From: Thiomicrorhabdus aquaedulcis
Lineage (GTDB): Bacteria; Pseudomonadota; Gammaproteobacteria; Thiomicrospirales; Thiomicrospiraceae
NCBI RefSeq assembly: GCF_004001325.1
Contig: NZ_AP018722.1
Location: 868,001-932,000 of the forward strand
DNA: 64,000 bases
Reading direction: 5' to 3'
In this document: positions 44,235 to 59,226 of the stretch, piece by piece
Position numbering within the stretch: position 1 is the first letter of the stretch
How the letters are laid out: the number at the start of each line of letters is the position of its first letter
Notes under the pieces: model-generated
The model's database searches: none
What the model was told of the DNA's origin: nothing
What the model saw: only the letters and a program-made list of their open reading frames with translations
Program-made: the position numbers and the translations under genes

Positions 44235-44999
44235 GATTAAACGGGCTCAGAATAAGTTTATTTTGAGCTGTCTTCTATTGATATTAGTTGTGCAAATGCG
44301 GCACCTAAAAGTGCAAGTAATGCTCTTAGATAAATGCCAAGCATGTGTTGGGAAAGAATCACAAATCATAGAAAATCCAATGACCAAATAAGCGAATCAC
44401 CAAGATAAGCGAAGGCTTGTTAAAGCAGTCAGTCTAAAAAATTCTTTGCCTTTTTAAAGCGCAATGCTTAAGGCGGTTAAATATTTTGCCTAAACCCTGT
44501 CTGACCTCAATTATGTTATTTTTGTTCGAAACCTTTATTCAATACCCTCGTTACATTCATAAAAATATTCATAAAAATAATGGCCGTTAATAGTTATTAT
44601 TTATATGCAATCCCAGCTTCTTTTTACTTATAACCTTTGTTTTATGCAGTGCTCACATTTTTAACACTATGTTTCATAACAGAAAAATAAGCTTATCTAT
44701 CCATAAAAAACTTTAGTGCCCAGCCGCATGATTTTCATTAAATATAGTTTATATTGATATCAAATATCTTTATGTTCGTTTTTTTACGAAAAAAAAGTAA
44801 AAGCTTAGCAGGGTGTGGCGGGAATCTCTTTGAATCGAGGGCTGTTCATACGTTTTTAAACGAAAAGCAGAAATATTTTAACTGTTTTAGGCCGTAATTT
44901 TACCCGTACAAAGATTTTTAGGTATGCTTTTTAAATCAGAAAACAACAAAAACCAAAAAAATAAAAACCCAGATCAGCTACCTAAATGTGAGCATTATC
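44235..44999. other. AT-rich gap with no intact gene
   Basis: About 760 bases between MITE copy 3 and the PAS/CZB receptor. A decayed MITE lies at about 44785-44918. A 28-codon reverse frame at 44258-44344 has a hydrophobic sequence but no convincing start signal. Otherwise nothing was recognised, and base composition is clearly more AT-rich than the neighbouring genes. Confidence 0.6.
44785..44918. mobile_element. Decayed MITE copy
   Basis: In order it shows TACGAAAAAAAAGTAAAA, GGCGGGAA, AACGAAAAGCAGAAATATTT, TTAACTGTTTTAGGCCGTA and CCGTACAAAG, matching MITE copy 2 with many substitutions. Both terminal repeats have eroded and no target duplication is visible. Confidence 0.6.
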
Positions 45000-47555
45000 A
45001 TGTCAACAGAATATTTACTACCGCCCAGCACCGTTATTCTTTCTACTGCTGATTTACAAGGCAGAATTCTCACATTTAATCAAAGCTTTCTGGAGGCATC
45101 AGGCTACACTATTGATGAAATTCAGGGAAAGCCGCACAGCATTCTGCGTCATCCAGACATGCCCAAAGAAGCTTTTAAAGACATGTGGCAAACCATTCAA
45201 GCCGGTAAACCTTGGTTTGGTCTGGTTAAAAATAAACGCAAAAATGGTGACTTTTATTGGGTGGCTGCCAATGCGAGTCCCATTTTTACAGATGGGAAAA
45301 TAACCGGCTTTGTATCAGTACGCTATCCTGCAAGCAGCGCCCAAAAAACGATGGCAGAAAAACTCTACAACCAAATTCGTAATCAACAAGCCAAGATGCC
45401 TTGGACAAAAACACGCCCCGCCTATTTAAATCATTTTATGGGTTCAGGTCTGCTTGTGTTGACGGGAGCACTTTTACCAACGCTGACCACTTTGCCATCT
45501 TTAGTCGCTACCTTAGTAACCTTAGCGGGTTTGGCTTGGGTTAGTATCTTCTATTTTAAAGCAAACAAACCCAATGCAGTTCAAAGCAGAGCGATTGAAG
45601 ACCTGAGCAATGGCATTTTTCGCGAACCTATAGTGGGTCATGATGCCTGGTCAAATGCACTTAACCTACTTCGCACCCGAGTTGGGCAAAATGCCAGTGA
45701 TACTCTTGATGCCGCTCGCCAAAGTGCCATGCTTACTACGGCCATGAATGCGGCAAGCACAAACTTAATGGTTGCCGATAGTGATTTTAATATCGTAAGC
45801 ATCAATACAACGCTGGCTGAGATGTTTCAGCGCAACGAGACAACCTTGCAAACTGCGTTGCCCAATTTTAGTGCAAAAAGCATTGTTGGCAGTAATATGG
45901 ATATTTTTCATAAAGACCCAAGTCATCAAAGAAAAATGGTTGGAGCGCTTCAAACGACTTGGAGCGGTCGTTTAGATGTCGCCGGACTGAGCTTAGACCT
46001 TACGGTCGTACCGGTGTTAAACCAAGGTGTTAAACAGGGCTTTGTGGTCGAGTGGCGCGACATGACGGCTCAAGTGCAAATTCAAAACCAACTTGCGCAA
46101 GCAATACAGGCCGCAAGCACCGGTGTTTTAACCAGCCAAATTAATCTTAAAGGACAAGATGGGTTTTATTTACAGGTTGGACAAGGCATTAACGCGCTCT
46201 TAATTGGCTTGCAAGACTTTATGGCTAAAACCATTTATAACATTGGCGAAATTGCGTTTAATCGCTTAAACGGTCAACTGGATGGTCAATTTGATGGCAG
46301 TTATCGTATGACTCAAGACGCTATTAACATAGCGTTGCGAGGCTTAAATGAAATGGTTGGACAAGTGCAGTTTTCGGCCAACCTTGTTAATAATGCTATG
46401 CGCCAATTATCCTCTGGCGTCAATGAATTTTCGAGCCAGGTACAGCAGCAGGCGGCGGCCATAGAGCAAACATCGGCGGCTTCACAGCAAATGCTGGCCA
46501 GCGTTCAACAGAATATGAGTACTATTCATCATGCAAACAGCGTGACTCAAAATGTAACCCTTCAAGTTAAGTCGGGGAGCGGGGTCATGGACAAAGCATT
46601 AATCAGCATTCAAGCGGTAGAAGCTTCGGGTCATAAAATTGGCGAGATCGTCATTTTAATTGATAGCATTGCTTTTCAAACCAATCTATTGGCGCTCAAC
46701 GCCGCCGTTGAGGCCGCTCGTGCGGGGGAACATGGCCGTGGTTTTGCAGTAGTCGCCAGTGAAGTGCGTGCCTTGGCAGGTAAGTCTGCACAAGCCGCTA
46801 AAGAAATAAAAAACCTTATTGACACCAGTGTTCAGCAAATTGATGAGGGCACTCAACGAGTTAAAGAAGCCAGTAATGCCCTGAATGAAATCATGTCATC
46901 TACCAATGAAGTCAGCAGCATTATGCTTGAGGTTACCAATGCCAGTGCTGAACAAGAACAAGCTATTCACGAAGTAACCAATGCTATGACCATTATGGAC
47001 AGCGCCATTCAGCAAAGTGCTGCACTGGTTGAGCAGACCGCTGCCAGCGCTGAACAGGTTTCAGATAATATGAATACACTAAATCATTTGATTTCAAGTT
47101 TTGAATTATCAAACGAGGCAAAAGCCATTAGCCAATCTGGACGCTCACCTTTGGCAGATATGAAGCAAATTCACCTTAATTGGCGCTTAAGCATCGCTAA
47201 TGCATTAACAGGTTTTGATACAAGCGTTTCTGTAGAAGATGCGGTTGACATCCATATATGTGAACTGGGTAAATGGCGTTACAGCGAAGGCAGTCAATTA
47301 GAACATTTACCCTTAATGCGTCAGCTTGATGAAAAACACATTCATTTCCACCAGTTAGTAGGACAGGCGCTTGGTTTTGCAAAAAAAGGCGATTATGCGA
47401 ACGTTGATCCTATGATGCCGCAAATAAATCTTTTATCTACCGATATTGTTGAATTGCTGACCGAACTGGAAAAAAACATTATTACACCCTTAGGAATCGC
47501 TGCTAATTTACCCGCTTGTAAGGGTCAACCACATGGTTGCGCTCAAAAATACTAA
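45000..47555 (+). CDS. PAS-containing chemoreceptor with C-terminal CZB domain
   Basis: About 851 residues. An Aer-like N-terminal PAS domain ([36 protein letters not shown]) is followed by a membrane hairpin (about 150-195), a second PAS-like domain ([20 protein letters not shown]), the receptor tip [20 protein letters not shown] and a C-terminal CZB zinc-binding domain with [26 protein letters not shown] and HIHFHQLV. It probably senses redox or energy state through the PAS domains; CZB domains bind zinc and respond to zinc or hypochlorite in other receptors. A GTG at 44988 is an alternative start. A gene for a PAS-GGDEF-EAL protein follows after 53 bases. Confidence 0.92.
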
Positions 47556-47608
47556 ATTATTACCCAAAAATTGGGTGAGCTTAAATCAGAAAAAATGAGC
47601 AGATTTTA

Positions 47609-49572
47609 ATGGATAAAAATGACCTTGCAAGACATAGCAACCACGCTATAACGATTGATCAACGACTTTTGGAGCAACGGCGTGCCCTTGATGAAGCGGC
47701 CATTGTTTCAGAGACCGATTTAACCGGCAACATCACTTACTTTAACGATAAATTTGTTGAAATTTCTGGTTACAGTCGTTATGAACTGATTGGCCAAAAC
47801 CACCGCATCATAAACTCAAACACGCATAACCCAGCTTTTTTTCAGCACATGTGGCACACCATTTTAATGGGCGATACATGGCAGGGAGATATTTGTAATC
47901 GCAAAAAAGATGGGCAACTATATTGGGTTAAAAGCACTATTGTGCCAATTATGGATACCAACACACACAAGCCCGTGCGCTTTCAATCCATTCGCTTTGA
48001 CATCACCCCCCAAAAAGAACTCGAACAATCTCTAATTCACCAAACGACCACCGACCCGCTTACGGGGATTAATAATCGTTATGCTCTTAATAGACTGTTT
48101 AACATCGCAAAAAACCTTGCAGAGAGCCAGAACACACTTCTTGCAGTTTGCCTAATCGACCTTGATGACTTTAAATCAATCAACGATCAATTAGGTCATA
48201 AAGAGGGTGATCAAGTTCTTATTCAGTTAGCACTAAGGTTAAAGCACACCTTGCGTGACCATGACATGGTTGCGCGACTGGGTGGTGATGAATTTGCCTT
48301 AATACTTAATAATTTAAAAAGCAAAGATGAAATTAACGTTTGTCTTCATCGGCTATCTCAAGCAATTGAACAGCCACTCCATCTTGACGGTTACTCCGTT
48401 ACTCTGAGTGCTAGCCTTGGCGTGGCTATTTACCCTGAGCATAACGATGAATTTGATGTTTTAATTCGCCAAGCCGATTATTCGATGTATCTCGCCAAAC
48501 AAAAGGGCAAAAATCAATTTGTTTTTTTGATCATTCTGAAAATTTAGAACAAAAAGACCTCAACAACCTTTTTAACGACGTACACAATGGCATGATTGCA
48601 AACGAATTTTTATTGCATTATCAACCCAAAGTTAATATGCGCACTGGGAGCATCTTTGGCATGGAAGCCTTGCTGCGCTGGCAACATCCAACACAAGGCA
48701 ACAGACCCCCTTTAAGCTATCTTCCCAAAATTGAGCAACATGACATTATCATCGAGCTTGGTAATTGGATTCTCGACAGTGCGCTGAGTCAAATTGCAAA
48801 GTGGCATCAACAAGGTAACAGCTGGGTGGTGAGTGTCAATATTGCAAGCCATCACCTGCAACATCCCGATTTTTTTACAGTGCTAACACAAACCTTAGCG
48901 CGTCATCCCAATGCACCGGCACATTTATTAGAACTAGAAATTTTGGAGACTGTTGTATTAACCGATGTTACTTATGTCAAAGATCTGATTAATAAATGTC
49001 AGTCACTAGGGGTACATGTTGCGCTGGATGATTTTGGGACAGGATATTCATCACTTAGCTATTTAAAAAACTTGCCGACAGAAACCATAAAAATAGATCA
49101 AAGCTTTGTGAGAGACATGCAAACTGACCAAGGTGATTTGGCCATTATTGAAGCCATTATCAGCATTGGTAAAGCGTTTAATCGTAAAGTCTTAGCAGAA
49201 GGCGTTGAGACGGATGAACAAGGGGTAATATTAATGCGGCTAGGTTGCGACCTAGCGCAGGGCTATGGAATCGGCAGACCCATGCCTGCCGAACAAGTGC
49301 AAGTTTGGGCTAATGCCTATCAACCAAGTGAGCTTTGGCAACAATGGAACAGTCAAAACTGGTCTTTGGAAGATATGCCTTTAGTCATGGCGCAACGCGA
49401 CCATGCCCAATGGGTACAACAAATTGAACGTTATGTTTGTTCACCCAATAGCCAGCAAATGCCTGAAATTGAGTATCATCATCATTGTCGATTTGGGCAA
49501 TGGTATTATGGCGCGGGCAAATCCTATTCTTTATTACCTGTGGAGTGGTTACACTATTTCGTACCTAGATGA
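47609..49572 (+). pseudogene. PAS-GGDEF-EAL(-CZB) protein, frameshifted and cut by IS
   Basis: Domains in order: PAS (SETDLTGNITYFNDKFVEIS), GGDEF with intact VARLGGDEFALIL, EAL with MEALLRW, LEILETVVL, ALDDFGTGYSSLS, VLAEGVE, and the beginning of a CZB domain (YHHHCRFGQWYYGAGK). The frame breaks after KGKNQFVF at the T7 run 48522-48528; with eight T it reads FFDHSENLEQKDLNNLFND straight into the EAL frame. The last ten codons (from 49539) belong to the IS end, so the CZB domain is truncated. Both c-di-GMP domains would be active by motif. Confidence 0.85.
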
Positions 49573-49893: not shown

Positions 49894-50798
49894 AGTATGC
49901 GTGGATACAAAAGCATCGAGAAGAATTCCCGCTTGTACTGATGTGTAAGGTATTAAACGTGCCCGTCAGCAGCTTTAATAGCTGGCTAAAATTAGACCCC
50001 ACAGATAAGGCAGCCGAACAAAAAGAGAATACTGATTTGGTTAAAGAGACCTTCGGCATCTTAAAAGGAAATGCAGGAGCAAGAGGCATAAAAGGTTATT
50101 TAACCAACGAAAAGAAAGTGACGATGAGTCGGCGTAAGATTGCTCGAATCATGCGAGAACAAGGCCTAATCGTCCACACTCGTAAGAAGTTTAAGAAAGC
50201 CAGCAGTGCGGCCATTAATGACCCAAAAATACAGCCAAACTTACTCAAACGGGAGTTTAAAGTCAGCTACCTCAACCAAGTATGGGTCGGTGACATAACG
50301 CAAGTTAAAACCCAGCAAGGCTGGATGTACTTGGCCACCTACATTGACCTCTACTCAAGAAAAGTAGTCGGATGGGCATTGGAATCGCATATGCGCTCAG
50401 AGCTCATCGAAACCGCATTAAAAAGAGCACTGTGGAATCGTAAACCACCAAAAGGACTGATGGTTCACACGGACCAAGGCAGTCAATTTATCAGTAATGC
50501 TTACCGCAAGCTGATTGCCCATTGGGGCATTAAGCAAAGCATGAGTCGTCGCGGAAATTGTTGGGATAATGCCGTTATTGAAAGCTTCTTTAAGTCTTTC
50601 AAAACAGAAACCGTTTATCAGCTTACAAAATTAATCGACCAACAAGAAATGCGTTGGCTGGTTTCGGAATATATGGGGCACTACAACCACATCAGGCCAC
50701 ACAGCTCGAACGGTTATATTGCGCCTGCAAAATTCGAGCAAATAAGGCTAGACCGACTAAAAGAAATTGAAGAAAATCTAGGTACGAAAAAGTGTTGA
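49887..50798 (+). CDS. IS3-family transposase OrfB (made by -1 frameshift)
   Basis: DDE integrase-type transposase. The -1 frame from about 49887 reads EIKYAWIQKHREEFPLVLMC, the usual OrfB start, and continues to 50798; a separate ATG lies at 49941. HTH_21 region MSRRKIARIMREQGLIVHTR, then catalytic residues in QVWVGDITQVKTQQGWMYLA (first Asp), LMVHTDQGSQFIS (second Asp) and NCWDNAVIESFFKSFKTE (Glu). Appears intact, so the element could still be mobile. Confidence 0.93.
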   Translation, partial: EIKYAWIQKHREEFPLVLMCKVLNVPVSSFNSWLKLDPTDKAAEQKENTDLVKETFGILKGNAGARGIKGYLTNEKKVTMSRRKIARIMREQGLIVHTRKKFKKASSAAINDPKIQPNLLKREFKVSYLNQVWVGDITQVKTQQGWMYLATYIDLYSRKVVGWALESHMRSELIETALKRALWNRKPPKGLMVHTDQGSQFISNAYRKLIAHWGIKQSMSRRGNCWDNAVIESFFKSFKTETVYQLTKLIDQQEMRWLVSEYMGHYNHIRPHSSNGYIAPAKFEQIRLDRLKEIEENLGTKKC

Positions 50799-53453: not shown

Positions 53454-55534
53454 TTAGTTTAGCCGTGCGACATGGCCGGTATTAAAAAATGCCATTTCTT
53501 TTTGCAATAAATTGGCCTGCTCGTTCAGACTTTCTGAGGCTGCACTGGTTTCTTCTACCAGTGCGGCATTTTGTTGAGTCGCCCCATCTATTTGAATAAT
53601 GGCGTGGTGGACTTGGCGTACACCCTCGGCTTGTTCGGACGAGGCAGTTGCGATCTGAGTAATCATTTGTGTCATTAACCGAACGGACTCATTGATTTCT
53701 TTTAAAACCCCTCCTGATTCCGATGCCAAATTTGCCCCTTGATTAACGCGAGTCACCGTTTGATCAATCAGCAGTTTTATACTTTTTGCCGCATCGGCTG
53801 ATTTTTGAGCCAATTGACGCACTTCGCTGGCAACTACGGCAAATCCACGTCCATGTTCGCCAGCTCTTGCTGCTTCAACTGCGGCATTTAAGGCTAATAA
53901 ATTGGTTTGAAAGGCGATGCTGTCAATCAACGTGACTATTTCTGAAATTTGATGACTCGAATCTTGAATCATTTGCATGGCTTGTAGGGTTTGTTGCATG
54001 ACCTCAACCCCTTGATGCGCTTTACCTTGTACTTGTTGGCTTACCTGCGTTGCCTGTTTAGCGTTATCGTTGGTGCTTTGTACTTGGCTACTCATTTGGT
54101 GTATGGCTGACGAAGTTTGTTCTAAAGCCGCGGCTTGTTCTTGTACTCGCTCACTTAAATTTAAAGAGCCTTGCGACACTTCATGAGCTGCGCCACTGAC
54201 CACTTCGGCGGCGGCCAAAGCGACATTAACCACGGTTTTAATTTTGGCAGTTGAATCATTCATGGCGTGTTGCAAGGTTTGCAACTGCCCTTTAAAGCCA
54301 TCGCCGGTTAAGGTCTGAGTTAAGTCGCCGGCCGCTTGCGCAGTAACAACGCCATTGATGGCATCAACGGTATGCGCTATAGAATCCATGGCTTGATTGA
54401 CTCTATCTTTGAGTTGCGCCAAACTGCCACGGGCACTGACTTTAACTTGACCTGTAAAATCACCTTGCGCCATTTGATGCATGACTTGGTTAATTTCGGC
54501 CATCACCGTGTCTAACGCAGTCATGGCATTTTGCACCAGATTTCGAAACTCTCCCGGTACCTTAGCGTCCATTCGGGCTGAGAAGTCACCTTCATACAGC
54601 GCTTGCATGACCTTTGCCAGTTCATTCATGCTAAATGCGACAGACTCGGCCGAGCCATTTACACCCAATTTAAGGGTGGCTAAGTCGCCAATATAATCGC
54701 CTTGCATGCGCTGATTAAACTCGCCTTTGGCAATCCCATTGACCACTTGATTGGCTTCATTTATGGATTTTCTAAGTCGGCCAATAAGCCATTTAGACTT
54801 TGTCCTACTTGGTCTAGCTCATCTTTGCGCGGTTCAAATCGTAAAGAAAAATGCATTTCGCGTGATACGTGACTGACTTGATTGGTCATGCTCGCAATGG
54901 CTTTTTGAGAGAGCGCACCAGCAACCCACCCATAAAAATAACGACCAGCAGTATTAGGGCAATAACGACGACTTCACTTTTTAGCTTTTCGATAAACTGT
55001 GCATTAATATCGTCAATATAAATCCCGGTTCCAATAATCCACCCCCAAGGAGCAAACTCTCTGACATAGGATAATTTTCAACGGGTGTATCACTGTTGGG
55101 TTTAGGCCAAAAATAATGAACAAATCCTCCTGCCGCATTCGCCTTAACCGCTTTAACCATATCGACAAACAAAAAATTGCCCACTTTATCTTGGTTTGTA
55201 GACAAGTCTTGACCATCCAGTTTTGGGTTGGTGGGGTGCATAATCATTTTAGGCTGGTGATCATTTATCCAAAAATAATCCCCCTGACCGTACCGCAGAG
55301 TTTTAATGTAAGCCACGGCTTGTTGTTGCGCCTGTGCCTGTGACAGTTGACCCTCTTTTATTTTTTGTTCATATAAAAATAATTGACTAAACAAAGTGTC
55401 GGTTAACTTGGTTAATTGCACTTCTTTTCTTGCAGCATATTGGCACGTAAAGAATTTAAAGAATAAGCACTTAACACCAGCAGCCCTAACAAAGCGGTGG
55501 CTATCATTAGCCACACTCTACTCTGAATCGTCAT
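53454..55534 (-). pseudogene. Cache-type chemoreceptor with several frameshifts
   Basis: The ATG at 55534 follows a perfect AAAGGAGG and opens MTIQSRVWLMIATALLGLLV (TM1). It should continue through a single Cache domain (AVAYIKTLRYGQGDYFWIND, HPTNPKLDGQDLS, FAPWGWIIGTGIYIDD), TM2, HAMP repeats and the tip [20 protein letters not shown]. Four single-base losses break it: near 55425-55428 (T4), 55071-55078, 54902-54906 (T5) and 54768-54775. Unshifted, two pieces (54981-55514 and 53454-54746) remain. Either a pseudogene or a region with several sequencing errors. Confidence 0.85.
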
Positions 55535-56101
55535 ATATCCTCCTTTGGATGGTTTAAACAGTTTGTATAAAATGATTTAAATGAAACCTTTTTTAGGCAT
55601 AATTACATCCATGGAAATGGTTAAAATTCATTTATTTTTAGTAGTAAATTTTCTAGCAGTCTGCTGTTAGCTTAATTTTGCCGTAGAAATCGGAAATCGG
55701 AAGACGAAAAGGCCATTCAATTCTTTTCATTTGTGTGCGTGGATTCGACATCAAAAACCATCAAAAAAATATTTTATGAATTCTATACCAAAAAAACTGG
55801 TTTGGCTGGATTAAGTGCGTACCCTATTACGGCTAAAAAAGAAAGGGACTTAATTCTTTAGAGTAAGGCGCACCTTTTTACGTAAAAAGGCAGCATCCTC
55901 TTTTAGACAAACTTGTTTAGTACCATATGTTTTAATTTAGGGTGCTGGCTGAGAGAGAAGGGGATTCTTAAGTTTTATTTTAGCGTTGCTTAATTAAATT
56001 TACCGGTTATGAGTTTAATTTTACTCTGACCCCGTTTATTCCGTTTATGTGCCGTTGGTGCAAGGTCTCTAGTTGATTAAATTTTATTAAAAGGATAAAA
56101 A
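55535..56101. other. AT-rich gap with repeat fragments
   Basis: About 567 bases without a convincing gene. It contains an 18-base palindrome CCTTTTTACGTAAAAAGG at 55874-55891, a TTTAATTTTACTCTGACCCC segment (56014-56033) like the element end at 52121, and GTGCAAGGTCTC at 56059-56070, which looks like a solo MITE end. The LemA-like gene follows. Confidence 0.6.
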
Positions 56102-56665
56102 ATGAGTAAAACAGCGATGTTATTTGTTGGCACAACGATAGGTGGCCTTATTTTGCTACTGGTTATATTGGCGTCCTCTTACATTTCAGCAAACAATTAT
56201 GGTGCAAAAACAGAGGCTTCAATTGAGGCTCAATGGAAAAACAATAAAAATATCCTAGCTCAATACGAGCAGAAAGTGTTTGAAGTCGTTCAAGTGCCTA
56301 GCATGTACAAGGATGATATGAAGGAGGTCATTACATCCGCAATGACGGGTCGATATGGAGACGATGGATCTAAAGCTTTATTTCAATGGATTCAAGAGAA
56401 AATGCCCAACTTTGACTCTAATATTTATTCTGAAATTCAAAGGATTATTGCGTCAGGGCGTAAAGATTTTGAATTAGGTCAAACTAAGCTGCTTGATATG
56501 CAATCTCAATATGAAGCACAGTTAGGTTTTTTTTGGCGTGGATTATGGCTAAATATAGCGGGATTTCCAAAGAAAGATTTAAGTGAATTTACAATTATAA
56601 CCACTGAGCGTACAGAGAATGTCTTTGAAACTGGTATCGAAAAAGCGCCCTTAAAGTTGCGATAA
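56102..56665 (+). CDS. LemA-family protein
   Basis: 187 residues: one N-terminal membrane anchor (MLFVGTTIGGLILLLVILAS) with a short tail inside, then a helical LemA-like domain ending NIAGFPKKDLSEFTIITTER and the sequence TENVFETGIEKAP. LemA proteins are widespread membrane-anchored helical proteins of unclear function, often beside a TPM-domain protein. RBS AAAGGAT. Codon use is AT-rich compared with flanking genes. It is paired with the next gene after 17 bases. Confidence 0.78.
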   Translation: MSKTAMLFVGTTIGGLILLLVILASSYISANNYGAKTEASIEAQWKNNKNILAQYEQKVFEVVQVPSMYKDDMKEVITSAMTGRYGDDGSKALFQWIQEKMPNFDSNIYSEIQRIIASGRKDFELGQTKLLDMQSQYEAQLGFFWRGLWLNIAGFPKKDLSEFTIITTERTENVFETGIEKAPLKLR

Positions 56666-56682
56666 GAATAGGTGGCAGTGCA

Positions 56683-57756
56683 ATGGATTTAGCGTTAATA
56701 GTTTTGGCACTGCCATTAATTTATCTCATCTTTATTAAGCTCTATTTAAAAGAAACCATTACATGGACAGAATGGGCTTTGAATGTGTTTATCGTTGTTG
56801 TATCTGTCATTGCGGTGCTTGAATTTAGTAAATACATCCAGCATCACGACATTGAAATTTGGAATGGTGCCGTTGTGAGCAAGCATGATGAGAAGGTTTC
56901 TTGCACGCACTCATATTCTTGTGACTGCACAACTTATAAAAATTCAGATGGATCCACCTCTGAGTCATGTGCTACTTGCTACAAACATGATTTTGATGTT
57001 GATTGGATAGTGAAGACTACTGCAGGCAATATTAAAATTGACAGGGTTGATGAACAAGGTATTGTTGAACCTAAAAGATATTCTAATGTTCAAATAGGTG
57101 AGGCTGCTTCGTTAGAGCATCGTTTTGAAAATTATATTAAAGCTGTGCCAGAAAGTTTATTCAACGATCAAAATACGTCTATCAAATCAATAGATCGGGT
57201 TTTGCCTTTGTACCCTAAAGTGTTTGATTATTATAAGATAAATCGTGTTTTAGTGGATGCTCAAGCCATCGATGCAAAATATGTTTCGGATTTAAATGCG
57301 GCACTTAATGCTGGATTAAAAGAGCTCGGTAGTAAAAAAGAGGTCAATGTTATCGTTGTTCTGACAGATTATCCAGATGGGTTTTCTTATCGTGATTCGT
57401 TAAGATCAAAATGGCTAAATGGCAAAAAAAATGATGTTGTCGTATTAATCGGGGTTGGAGAAAATTACGAAGTAAAATGGTCGCATGTTTTTGGTTGGTC
57501 AAAAAATGAGTTAACAAATCTATCCATTTCAGAGGACATAATAAAGCTTAAAAAAGTCGATGATGCTCTTAATCTTTCAAGCGTTATTTTAAGCAACATT
57601 GAAAAATATTTTGAACGTGACTCTATGCAAAATTACGAGTACTTAAAGGATTCTATTGAGCCACCTTTATGGGTCATTTTATTAGCCTTATTTTTAGGAT
57701 TGAGCTTTTCTATTGGACTTTCAATTTACTTCCATAAAAGCATAAGATTTGAATAA
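56683..57756 (+). CDS. Cys-rich membrane protein with TPM-like region
   Basis: 357 residues, not matched to a named family with confidence. Two N-terminal membrane helices (about 2-18 and 30-48) are followed by a Cys cluster KVSCTHSYSCDCTTYKNSDG, SESCATCYK (six Cys, about residues 72-98) suggestive of metal binding or disulfides. A central alpha/beta region (NVIVVLTDYPDGFSYRDSLR, NDVVVLIGVGENYEVKWSHV) looks like the TPM domain that often partners LemA (as in YgcG), and a final helix (WVILLALFLGLSFSIGLSI) lies near the C-terminus. It is AT-rich and probably acquired with the LemA gene as a two-gene cassette. Confidence 0.65.
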   Translation: MDLALIVLALPLIYLIFIKLYLKETITWTEWALNVFIVVVSVIAVLEFSKYIQHHDIEIWNGAVVSKHDEKVSCTHSYSCDCTTYKNSDGSTSESCATCYKHDFDVDWIVKTTAGNIKIDRVDEQGIVEPKRYSNVQIGEAASLEHRFENYIKAVPESLFNDQNTSIKSIDRVLPLYPKVFDYYKINRVLVDAQAIDAKYVSDLNAALNAGLKELGSKKEVNVIVVLTDYPDGFSYRDSLRSKWLNGKKNDVVVLIGVGENYEVKWSHVFGWSKNELTNLSISEDIIKLKKVDDALNLSSVILSNIEKYFERDSMQNYEYLKDSIEPPLWVILLALFLGLSFSIGLSIYFHKSIRFE

Positions 57757-57827: not shown

Positions 57828-57868
57828 AAAAACCCATATGACCAGGCCTGGTCATATGGGTTTTTTTT
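57828..57868. terminator. Terminator built on the 38-base palindrome
   Basis: A perfect palindrome, AAAAACCCATATGACCAGG and CCTGGTCATATGGGTTTTT (57828-57865), centred on CCAGGCCTGG and ending in eight T. It serves as an intrinsic terminator in both directions between the LemA cassette and the convergent export operon. Confidence 0.9.
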
Positions 57869-57896: not shown

Positions 57897-59161
57897 TTAT
57901 TTTTGGGGTCGGGCTTTTACGCGCACGCCGTTTTCGATTTGGTCGCTGGGGTGGTTGATGAGTATTTGGTTTTGGTTTAGCCCGCTTATCACTTGGGCGT
58001 GCAGTCCGTTGTTGCGTCCAATGGTGACCGTTTGGCGTTGGGCGCGGCCGTTTTTAAGGATAAACACCGCCCAGTTTTGGTTGTTATGACCGTCACGACC
58101 TTCGCGAAATAGGCAACTGGCGGGAATTTGTAACACATCGTCTTGGTGCCATAGGGTAAATTGCGCTTCTACCCGATAGCCATCGCCCAAATTTTGCCAC
58201 TCTTGTGCGGGTGAGGTTATTTGGGCGATGACCCAAACCCGTTGTTCTTCTAAGCCCAGAGCCGACAATTTGGTGAACCCCGAAGGTTCAATTAAACGTA
58301 TTACGCCGTTAAGGGTTTGTTGGCCTCCCCAACGATTAAAACGGACGCTCATGCCCGGTTTGAGTTGCACGGCGTCGGCCGAGAGTACGTCTATTTGAAC
58401 TTCGAGCGCGCTTGGATCGCCCAGTTCTAAAAGGGTTTGTCCTCGGTTGATGGGGTTTTGACAGGTGCGCTCGACATTGAGAATTTTGCCTTTTATGGGG
58501 CTGGTGATGGCGAAGTGGGCGCTTAAATCAGTTGTATCGGTTGAGCTGGTTGAGTCGGTTGAATCGCTTGAGTTGTGATCTTTAGGGTTAATGTTTTTAA
58601 GGCGGCGCGGGCGGCTTGCAGTTCGTAGTGCGCCACATCGACTTTAAATTGTGCGCTGCGTTGATGGGCGGCGGCGGTGAGTGCGGCGGTGTTACTTTGG
58701 TCGTAGGTGTCTTGGGCGATTAGGCCTTTTTGCAAGAGAGTGTGGTGGCGGGTAAGTTGAACTTGCGCCATGTTGCTGTTGGCCAGCGCGATGTTTACTT
58801 GCGTTTTGGCCGATTCAAGTGCGGCTTGGGCGGCGGCAACCTGCGCTTGGGCTTGGGCGTAATGGCGTGCGTCTAACGCGGGTGCGTGTTGCGGTGTAAT
58901 GGTGAGCAGGTGTTGGCCTAGTTCAACCGAATCGCCGACGTTTAAGTGCATTTTGCAGGTTTCGCCGTCGATGGGGGCGGTGATAATGTAGCGGTTCATT
59001 AGCCGTGTCTGGCCGTCTTCTTCTAAGGTTTGGGTGAGCGGTGCGCGTTGTACGGTGGCTACCTCGACCCATTGGGCTTGTGGCCAAAACCCCCAAATAA
59101 GCAAGGCTACGGTTAGGCTGCTGCCAATGACCAGGCCTGGGTAACGTAAAATGTGCGCCAT
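57897..59161 (-). pseudogene. HlyD/MacA-like membrane fusion protein, frameshifted
   Basis: Periplasmic adaptor of an ABC export system, about 420 residues if intact. TM anchor (VIGSSLTVALLIWGF), biotinyl-lipoyl half (ITAPIDGETCKMHLNVGDSV), coiled coil (AQAQVAAAQAALESAKTQVN), and a C-terminal half starting SAHFAITSPIKGKILNVERT and ending QIENGVRVKARPQ. The 5' frame stops just upstream of 58523; one more A in the A5 run (T5 at 58594-58598) would give ALKNINPKDHNSSDSTDSTS, a Ser/Thr-Asp linker, and join the halves. Start at the ATG with AAGGA 7 bases upstream. Palindrome core at 59131-59140 (phase Pro-Gly-Leu). Confidence 0.82.
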
Positions 59162-59226
59162 ATCATGTTCCTTATTCTCTTTATTATCTTCTGTTTTATT
59201 CATTCGTTCAGTTATTCAGTCAGTTT

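Follow-up and report, generated by a model that had tools for sequence, protein, structure and literature searches.

The window, a stretch of 64,000 nucleotides from the genome of Thiomicrorhabdus aquaedulcis, contains two intact, co-directional open reading frames on the + strand at 56102-56665 (gene 1, 187 aa) and 56683-57756 (gene 2, 357 aa), 17 bp apart, exactly where the initial annotation had placed them. Based on profile matches and AlphaFold2 models, gene 1 encodes a LemA-like membrane protein that has no Cys (phrog_1383), and gene 2 encodes a TPM-like membrane protein with a Cys hairpin (phrog_2087). The pair is AT-rich, as had been noted, with a GC content of 0.37 for gene 1 and 0.34 for gene 2. 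A codon bias unlike that of the surroundings had also been claimed, and for GC3, the sole measure used, this holds (0.33 and 0.29 vs 0.38-0.64 in 16 other window ORFs). Putative ribosome-binding-like sequences can be read 5´ of both genes, the one preceding gene 1 being AAAGGA at 56090-56095 on the + strand. A palindromic terminator-like hairpin with a 17-pair stem and a T-run is found at 57828-57865 (strand not assigned); the 66 nt folded have an energy of -28.8 kcal/mol (z -5.46) and none of 200 shuffles was as stable, in agreement with the strong terminator reported previously. The hairpin is missing from the terminator-like sites of a consensus scan, and neither these sites nor the promoter-like sites (11 vs 9.0 expected) were commoner than in shuffles. 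The repeat debris described at the flanks was not recovered on the left side: the stretch 55530-56101 occurs just once in the genome, its sole other match being a weak one of 80 bp at 73%.

The pair is an AT-rich orphan among ordinary chromosomal genes. We considered a surrounding prophage and set this aside, given that the neighbours named by Pfam in a scan of the 17 longer ORFs across 37.7-62.4 kb are of ordinary chromosomal type: histidine phosphatase, CobS, a PLP enzyme, an ammonium transporter, a LonB-like protease, MCPs, GGDEF and EAL proteins, an M90 peptidase, an FtsX/MacB-type permease, and an ABC ATPase. An rve-type transposase at 49941-50798, ~5 kb left of the pair and presumably IS3-like, is the sole mobile gene among them, and there is no tRNA in the window. 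Within 4.6 kb at 44988-49572, a PAS/MCP protein and an EAL protein each carry a CZB zinc-binding domain near the C-terminus and possibly are both zinc-responsive signalling proteins. The MCP gene to the left of the pair is split on the - strand, with its Cache part at 54981-55514 and its HAMP/signalling part at 53454-54746, reflecting either a pseudogene or sequence errors. At 57897-59203 on the - strand, there are two ORFs with no Pfam match, which we read as one split HlyD-like gene; the gap between the tblastn pieces may be due to divergence rather than to a break, since six relatives also give two pieces. For an empty-site comparison, we used six stretches of relatives chosen for holding the permease. 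In all six, both HlyD-like pieces lie next to this gene, and five also show the ATPase (one stretch ends earlier). The MCP and the M90 peptidase have no match in these six stretches, so that the left border is not syntenic and we set no insertion boundary.

Gene 1 has an N-terminal transmembrane stretch at residues 2-31 (56105-56194, + strand; Kyte-Doolittle), and its AlphaFold2 model (pLDDT 88.9, from a 61-row alignment of the window protein and relatives) opens with a single long helix at residues 3-63. The protein had been called LemA-like, and the structural comparison is compatible with this call: the top match of the model is the LemA protein 2etd (Z 8.1, rmsd 4.4, 121 residues), although this value is not decisive alone, because unrelated helical chains follow at Z 7.7 and below. 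Gene 1 itself has no Pfam LemA (PF04011) match, and 14 of the 61 gene-1 relatives match PF04011 at E<=0.01 (best 8e-5). The phrog_1383 model also matches the genome's own LemA (E 1.5e-18), and the phrog_1383 and Pfam LemA models match in the same 6 of 14 control genomes. A profile comparison against that LemA gave a weak result (probability 6%, E 0.0059). LemA is the best fit for gene 1. Some relatives carry a Cys pair that is jointly present or absent in all 17 rows of alignment A2 (10 with the pair) and all 61 rows of alignment A5 (5 with); the other gene-1 Cys columns of A5 do not co-vary. The window gene 1, having no Cys, is without this pair.

For gene 2, membrane helices had been assigned to both termini, and hydropathy and the model (pLDDT 94.3, 61-row alignment of the window protein and relatives) bear this out. 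Kyte-Doolittle analysis gives hydrophobic stretches at residues 1-24, 25-53 and 324-351, and the model has helices at 2-21, 28-54 and 329-354, corresponding to two N-terminal transmembrane helices within residues 1-53 (56683-56841, + strand) and one C-terminal helix at residues 324-351 (57652-57735, + strand). The N-terminal helices are followed by a beta module at residues 55-112 (56845-57018, + strand) with model strands at 55-72, 77-86, 92-100 and 105-112, which holds the Cys hairpin, and by a TPM domain at residues 168-312 (57184-57618, + strand).

The assignment of the TPM domain, also put forward in the initial annotation, comes from the structural comparison rather than from sequence profiles. 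Foldseek alone gave weak support: a single PDB chain passed E<=0.001, namely 2kpt (TM-scores of 0.26 and 0.55 by query and by target), with 2kw7 as the next chain of interest at E 0.04. In a second ranking of Foldseek's own matches by Z score, 3ptj was the best chain (Z 10.1, rmsd 3.3, 128 residues), and 5anp (9.9), 3pvh (9.9), 2kw7 (9.5), 8c7i (9.2), 7tbr (9.2) and 2kpt (8.6) also aligned over approximately residues 168-312; the next chains were mycobacterial respiratory-supercomplex subunits at Z 8.1 and 8.0, followed by lower rows. Only 7tbr of the seven is titled a TPM domain; plant TLP18.3 accounts for 3ptj and 3pvh, and Psb32 for 8c7i. We take TLP18.3, Psb32, BA41 (5anp), PG_0361 and cg2496 all to be TPM proteins. 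Among viral models, Foldseek returned five matches at E<=0.001, one of them named "TPM domain-containing protein". The profile search gave 13.1 bits for Pfam TPM (PF04536), below the gathering cut-off of 22.1, and five of 61 gene-2 relatives match PF04536 at E<=0.01 (best 1.9e-4). By its model, gene 2 thus has the TPM fold, but by score it is no member of PF04536. No relative was found by sequence among solved structures at E<=1, and neither protein has a match in NCBIfam.

Both proteins instead match phage families over their full length: in PHROGs v4, gene 1 matches phrog_1383 with E 1.9e-59 (profile 3-182 of 187) and gene 2 matches phrog_2087 with E 7.9e-104 (profile 4-355 of 360). This bears on the earlier reading of the locus as a LemA/TPM pair, for which the TPM fold stands and LemA remains the best fit for gene 1, but kinship with ordinary bacterial pairs does not hold. 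A pair of that kind, inherited with the genome, would have the same two folds, but we consider this explanation extremely improbable given that the best families are phage ones matched end to end, that the canonical LemA of the genome lies elsewhere (G000:C1:510756-511241), and that gene 2, the sole phrog_2087 match of the whole genome, was found in none of 57 other relatives and, of 369 genomes sampled from the class, in this one alone. It was likewise found in no other of 398 genomes of the phylum (the three samples overlap), apart from a weak partial match (E 5e-4, 58 positions) that has stops inside and was set aside.

The phage connection, for which a survey had been suggested, proved extensive. 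Of 50,697 phage records, 452 contain a relative of gene 2 and 465 one of gene 1, with identities that are all <60%. The carriers include the T4-like Aeh1, the T5-like DU_PP_V and KIT04, Det7 of the Ackermannviridae, ICP1, PhiW-14, 121Q, Ea35-70, phiM12 and Bacillus phage G, with very large phages among them. No title on a phage LemA/TPM pair appeared among the literature matches listed. A viral-contig scan with a single protein found no relative. Loci were collected from the annotated records, one genome-contig scan and three viral-contig scans (best 80 of each viral scan), yielding 270 loci, of which 269 have a TPM-like frame of at least 200 aa and 129 are left after removal of sequences at least 80% identical. 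A LemA-like match is present in the same locus as the TPM-like gene in 124 of these 129 non-redundant loci. Three of the five loci without such a match hold at most 120 bases beyond the gene; the other two, with 5.6 and 7.9 kb there, truly lack the LemA-like gene at the sensitivity used. The LemA-like gene was placed downstream by script in 121 loci, always within 1 kb, and upstream in three. For one of the three (L112), the LemA-like match in fact lies downstream, which leaves the window and Bacillus phage G as the only loci with the LemA-TPM order. Judged by this co-occurrence, the pair is a phage two-gene module.

Apart from a frame found at 16 loci, whose example is antisense to the LemA-like gene, no other neighbour family occurs in more than four of 80 loci of an earlier set, a count that could miss a divergent third partner, because the blast clustering united the LemA-like gene itself in only 57 of the 80. 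In 121Q, a metallopeptidase-annotated gene lies directly before the pair and after a TelA-like gene; a gene annotated in the same way is near the pair in DU_PP_V, and a protein of locus L005 clusters with the 121Q one. Prevotella phages account for 15 of the gene-1 records and are not among the ten genera listed of 27 for gene 2; they may carry the LemA-like gene without a detectable TPM-like partner.

We examined the Cys region of gene 2 across these loci. Six Cys had been counted in the window protein; the spacing C-x5-C-x-C ... C-x2-C is correct, but there are five, at positions 74, 80, 82, 96 and 99. The counts cover 126 of the 129 non-redundant sequences; L091, L112 and L113, in which the region is missing or broken, were dropped. 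The full set of C74, H76, H102 and D105 is found in 99 of the 126, a share that is inflated because one of the viral-contig scans harvested loci by motifs inside the Cys cluster (the two others did not). The four residues also tend to be lost together: the other 27 sequences retain D105 in no case, H76 in one, H102 in three and C74 in ten.

The number of Cys follows a parity pattern. Besides C74, the 99 intact sequences have six hairpin Cys in 47 cases, four in 43, two in six and seven in three, and thus an even number in 96. In the 27 non-intact sequences, it is the total of hairpin Cys that is even in every case: the ten that keep C74 have three further Cys, for a total of four; where position 74 is Y or H (15 sequences), the total is four or six; and it is two and zero in the last two. 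In the best tree, built without the Cys region, the tetrad changes seven times, but well-supported branches hold just two independent pairs, which is not enough for a test. On the simplest reading of this co-occurrence and parity, C74 would be a metal ligand together with H76, H102 and D105, and the remaining hairpin Cys would form disulphide rungs between strands 77-86 and 92-100. In the window protein, the predicted metal site and rungs fall at 56902-56997 (+ strand); the rungs would involve C80, C82, C96 and C99, and positions 82 and 96 would be opposite each other in the model, provided that the 77-86/92-100 hairpin is regular. Such disulphides would place this part in an oxidising environment, the periplasm, and our inference is a periplasmic hairpin that is laddered by disulphides and has a metal site at its base. 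The Cys region also gave weak Pfam matches to a family of knottin toxins (E 0.058), which are far under the cut-off and were rejected. The cluster had been called unusual for such proteins; it instead characterises the phage TPM-like family and is not peculiar to the window copy.

Chromosomal copies of gene 2 are rare. A motif scan of an 84,980-genome collection gave 14 loci, several of them in metagenome-assembled genomes. One further copy (L105) likewise lies among cellular genes (CorA, a Na/H exchanger and an MCP; five neighbours scanned), and another (L106) adjoins RecA- and YqaJ-type genes. Gene 2 is present as well on nine large replicons filed as plasmids, from Variovorax, Vibrio and Photobacterium (three inspected). 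Two trees were examined for a donor phage, and in neither does the window row have a well-supported neighbour; it groups weakly with four cellular records (82/44), a grouping on which we do not rely. The pair could be decaying cargo, a phage or mobile-element remnant that has no present function in this bacterium. The absence of gene 2 from all 57 relatives, the low GC3, the reversed gene order, the transposase 5 kb away and the adjoining split MCP gene all fit such a history, but both ORFs are full length compared with their families, all four residues of the site are in place together with four further Cys, and the putative ribosome-binding-like sequences precede both genes. We regard decay as improbable.

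The public annotation suggests another role. PHROGs labels phrog_1383 "virion structural protein" while giving no function for phrog_2087, many public records repeat this label for gene-1 relatives, and gp20 of Acibel004, the virions of which were reportedly analysed by mass spectrometry (PMC4128745), is labelled a structural protein in its record. The LemA-like protein accordingly might be packaged and enter the membrane with the DNA. However, the pair of LIMEstone1 (ORF194/195) is not among the 39 virion proteins listed in the accessible text of PMC3296691, and that of Sajous1 (gp97/gp96) is absent from the virion table in the portion of PMC10892097 available to us. The label is doubtful for the Ackermannviridae, and we judge a virion or ejected protein to be very unlikely.

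Our preferred reading, which we hold tentatively, is that the window pair is a chromosomal, out-of-phage copy of the phage module and that the module serves as a periplasmic scaffold for membrane complexes. Both proteins would be anchored in the inner membrane, their soluble domains facing the periplasm, a topology suggested by the three helices, the paired Cys and the lysines (in the helix 1-2 loop and at the C-terminus) of gene 2. In gene 2, the disulphide-laddered beta-hairpin, with a C-x-H ... H-x2-D metal site at its base, would lead into the TPM domain, and together with the LemA-like partner the protein would form a scaffold that assembles or stabilises membrane protein complexes. In two published reports, TPM proteins are proposed to help assemble membrane-linked complexes (PMC11237479, PMC12419801). 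Phages might make the scaffold to keep the inner membrane working during infection, and the captured pair might do the same for this host or for an absent element. The scaffold role is the most likely one in our view and also the least certain step of the proposal. A bolder version, in which large lytic phages from many lineages bring their own periplasmic, metal- and redox-responsive membrane-guard complex (the LemA-like protein plus the TPM-like one with its C-H-H-D site on a disulphide ladder), seizing inner-membrane quality control while they infect, with occasional capture by bacteria as a stand-alone cassette, is a speculation that we think rather unlikely to be right.

The main and serious rival to the scaffold role is superinfection exclusion, whereby the two inner-membrane proteins would block DNA entry or a membrane step of other phages; phages would employ it once they have infected a cell, and the chromosomal copy would protect the bacterium. 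An autonomous two-gene cassette whose products are membrane-anchored and predicted to be periplasmic would suit this function; the pair is widespread in lytic phages, lies at most 2.5 kb from rIIA in Det7 and Sajous1, and occurs as chromosomal cassettes here and in UBA6503. Exclusion proteins, however, are generally small single proteins, while here a fold common to assembly factors is kept with a partner, and neither protein matches any family of known anti-phage defence in PADLOC at E<=1. We therefore consider exclusion possible, if on the unlikely side, and retain the scaffold as the working proposal.

The interest of these observations lies in the phage module rather than in the window copy. 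Two phage families of unclear function, present in several hundred phage genomes, become one module with recognisable folds, which offers a specific predicted metal and disulphide site, and the result speaks against the public "virion structural protein" label on one half of the pair. The rare chromosomal copies would provide a simple system for study outside the phage.

The pair can be compared with several known systems. PspA-associated TPM proteins of the YdjH type, described in PMC11237479, resemble gene 2 in being membrane-linked TPM proteins with a proposed part in membrane-complex assembly, whereas no PspA/band-7 Pfam match was found among the 17 window ORFs near our pair. LemA (PF04011; Thermotoga maritima TM0961, 2etd) has an N-terminal membrane helix and a helical bundle, as is predicted for gene 1, which in contrast has no Pfam match. 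The TPM domain (PF04536; TLP18.3, Psb32, BA41) shares its fold with gene 2 residues 168-312 (Z 9-10), but in gene 2 the domain is preceded by additional N-terminal helices and by a Cys/His hairpin module. The closest likeness is to phrog_2087/phrog_1383, the same pair with full-length matches and the same Cys signature as in the window; nearly all of those loci have the TPM-LemA order, whereas the window has LemA-TPM and is located in a chromosome.
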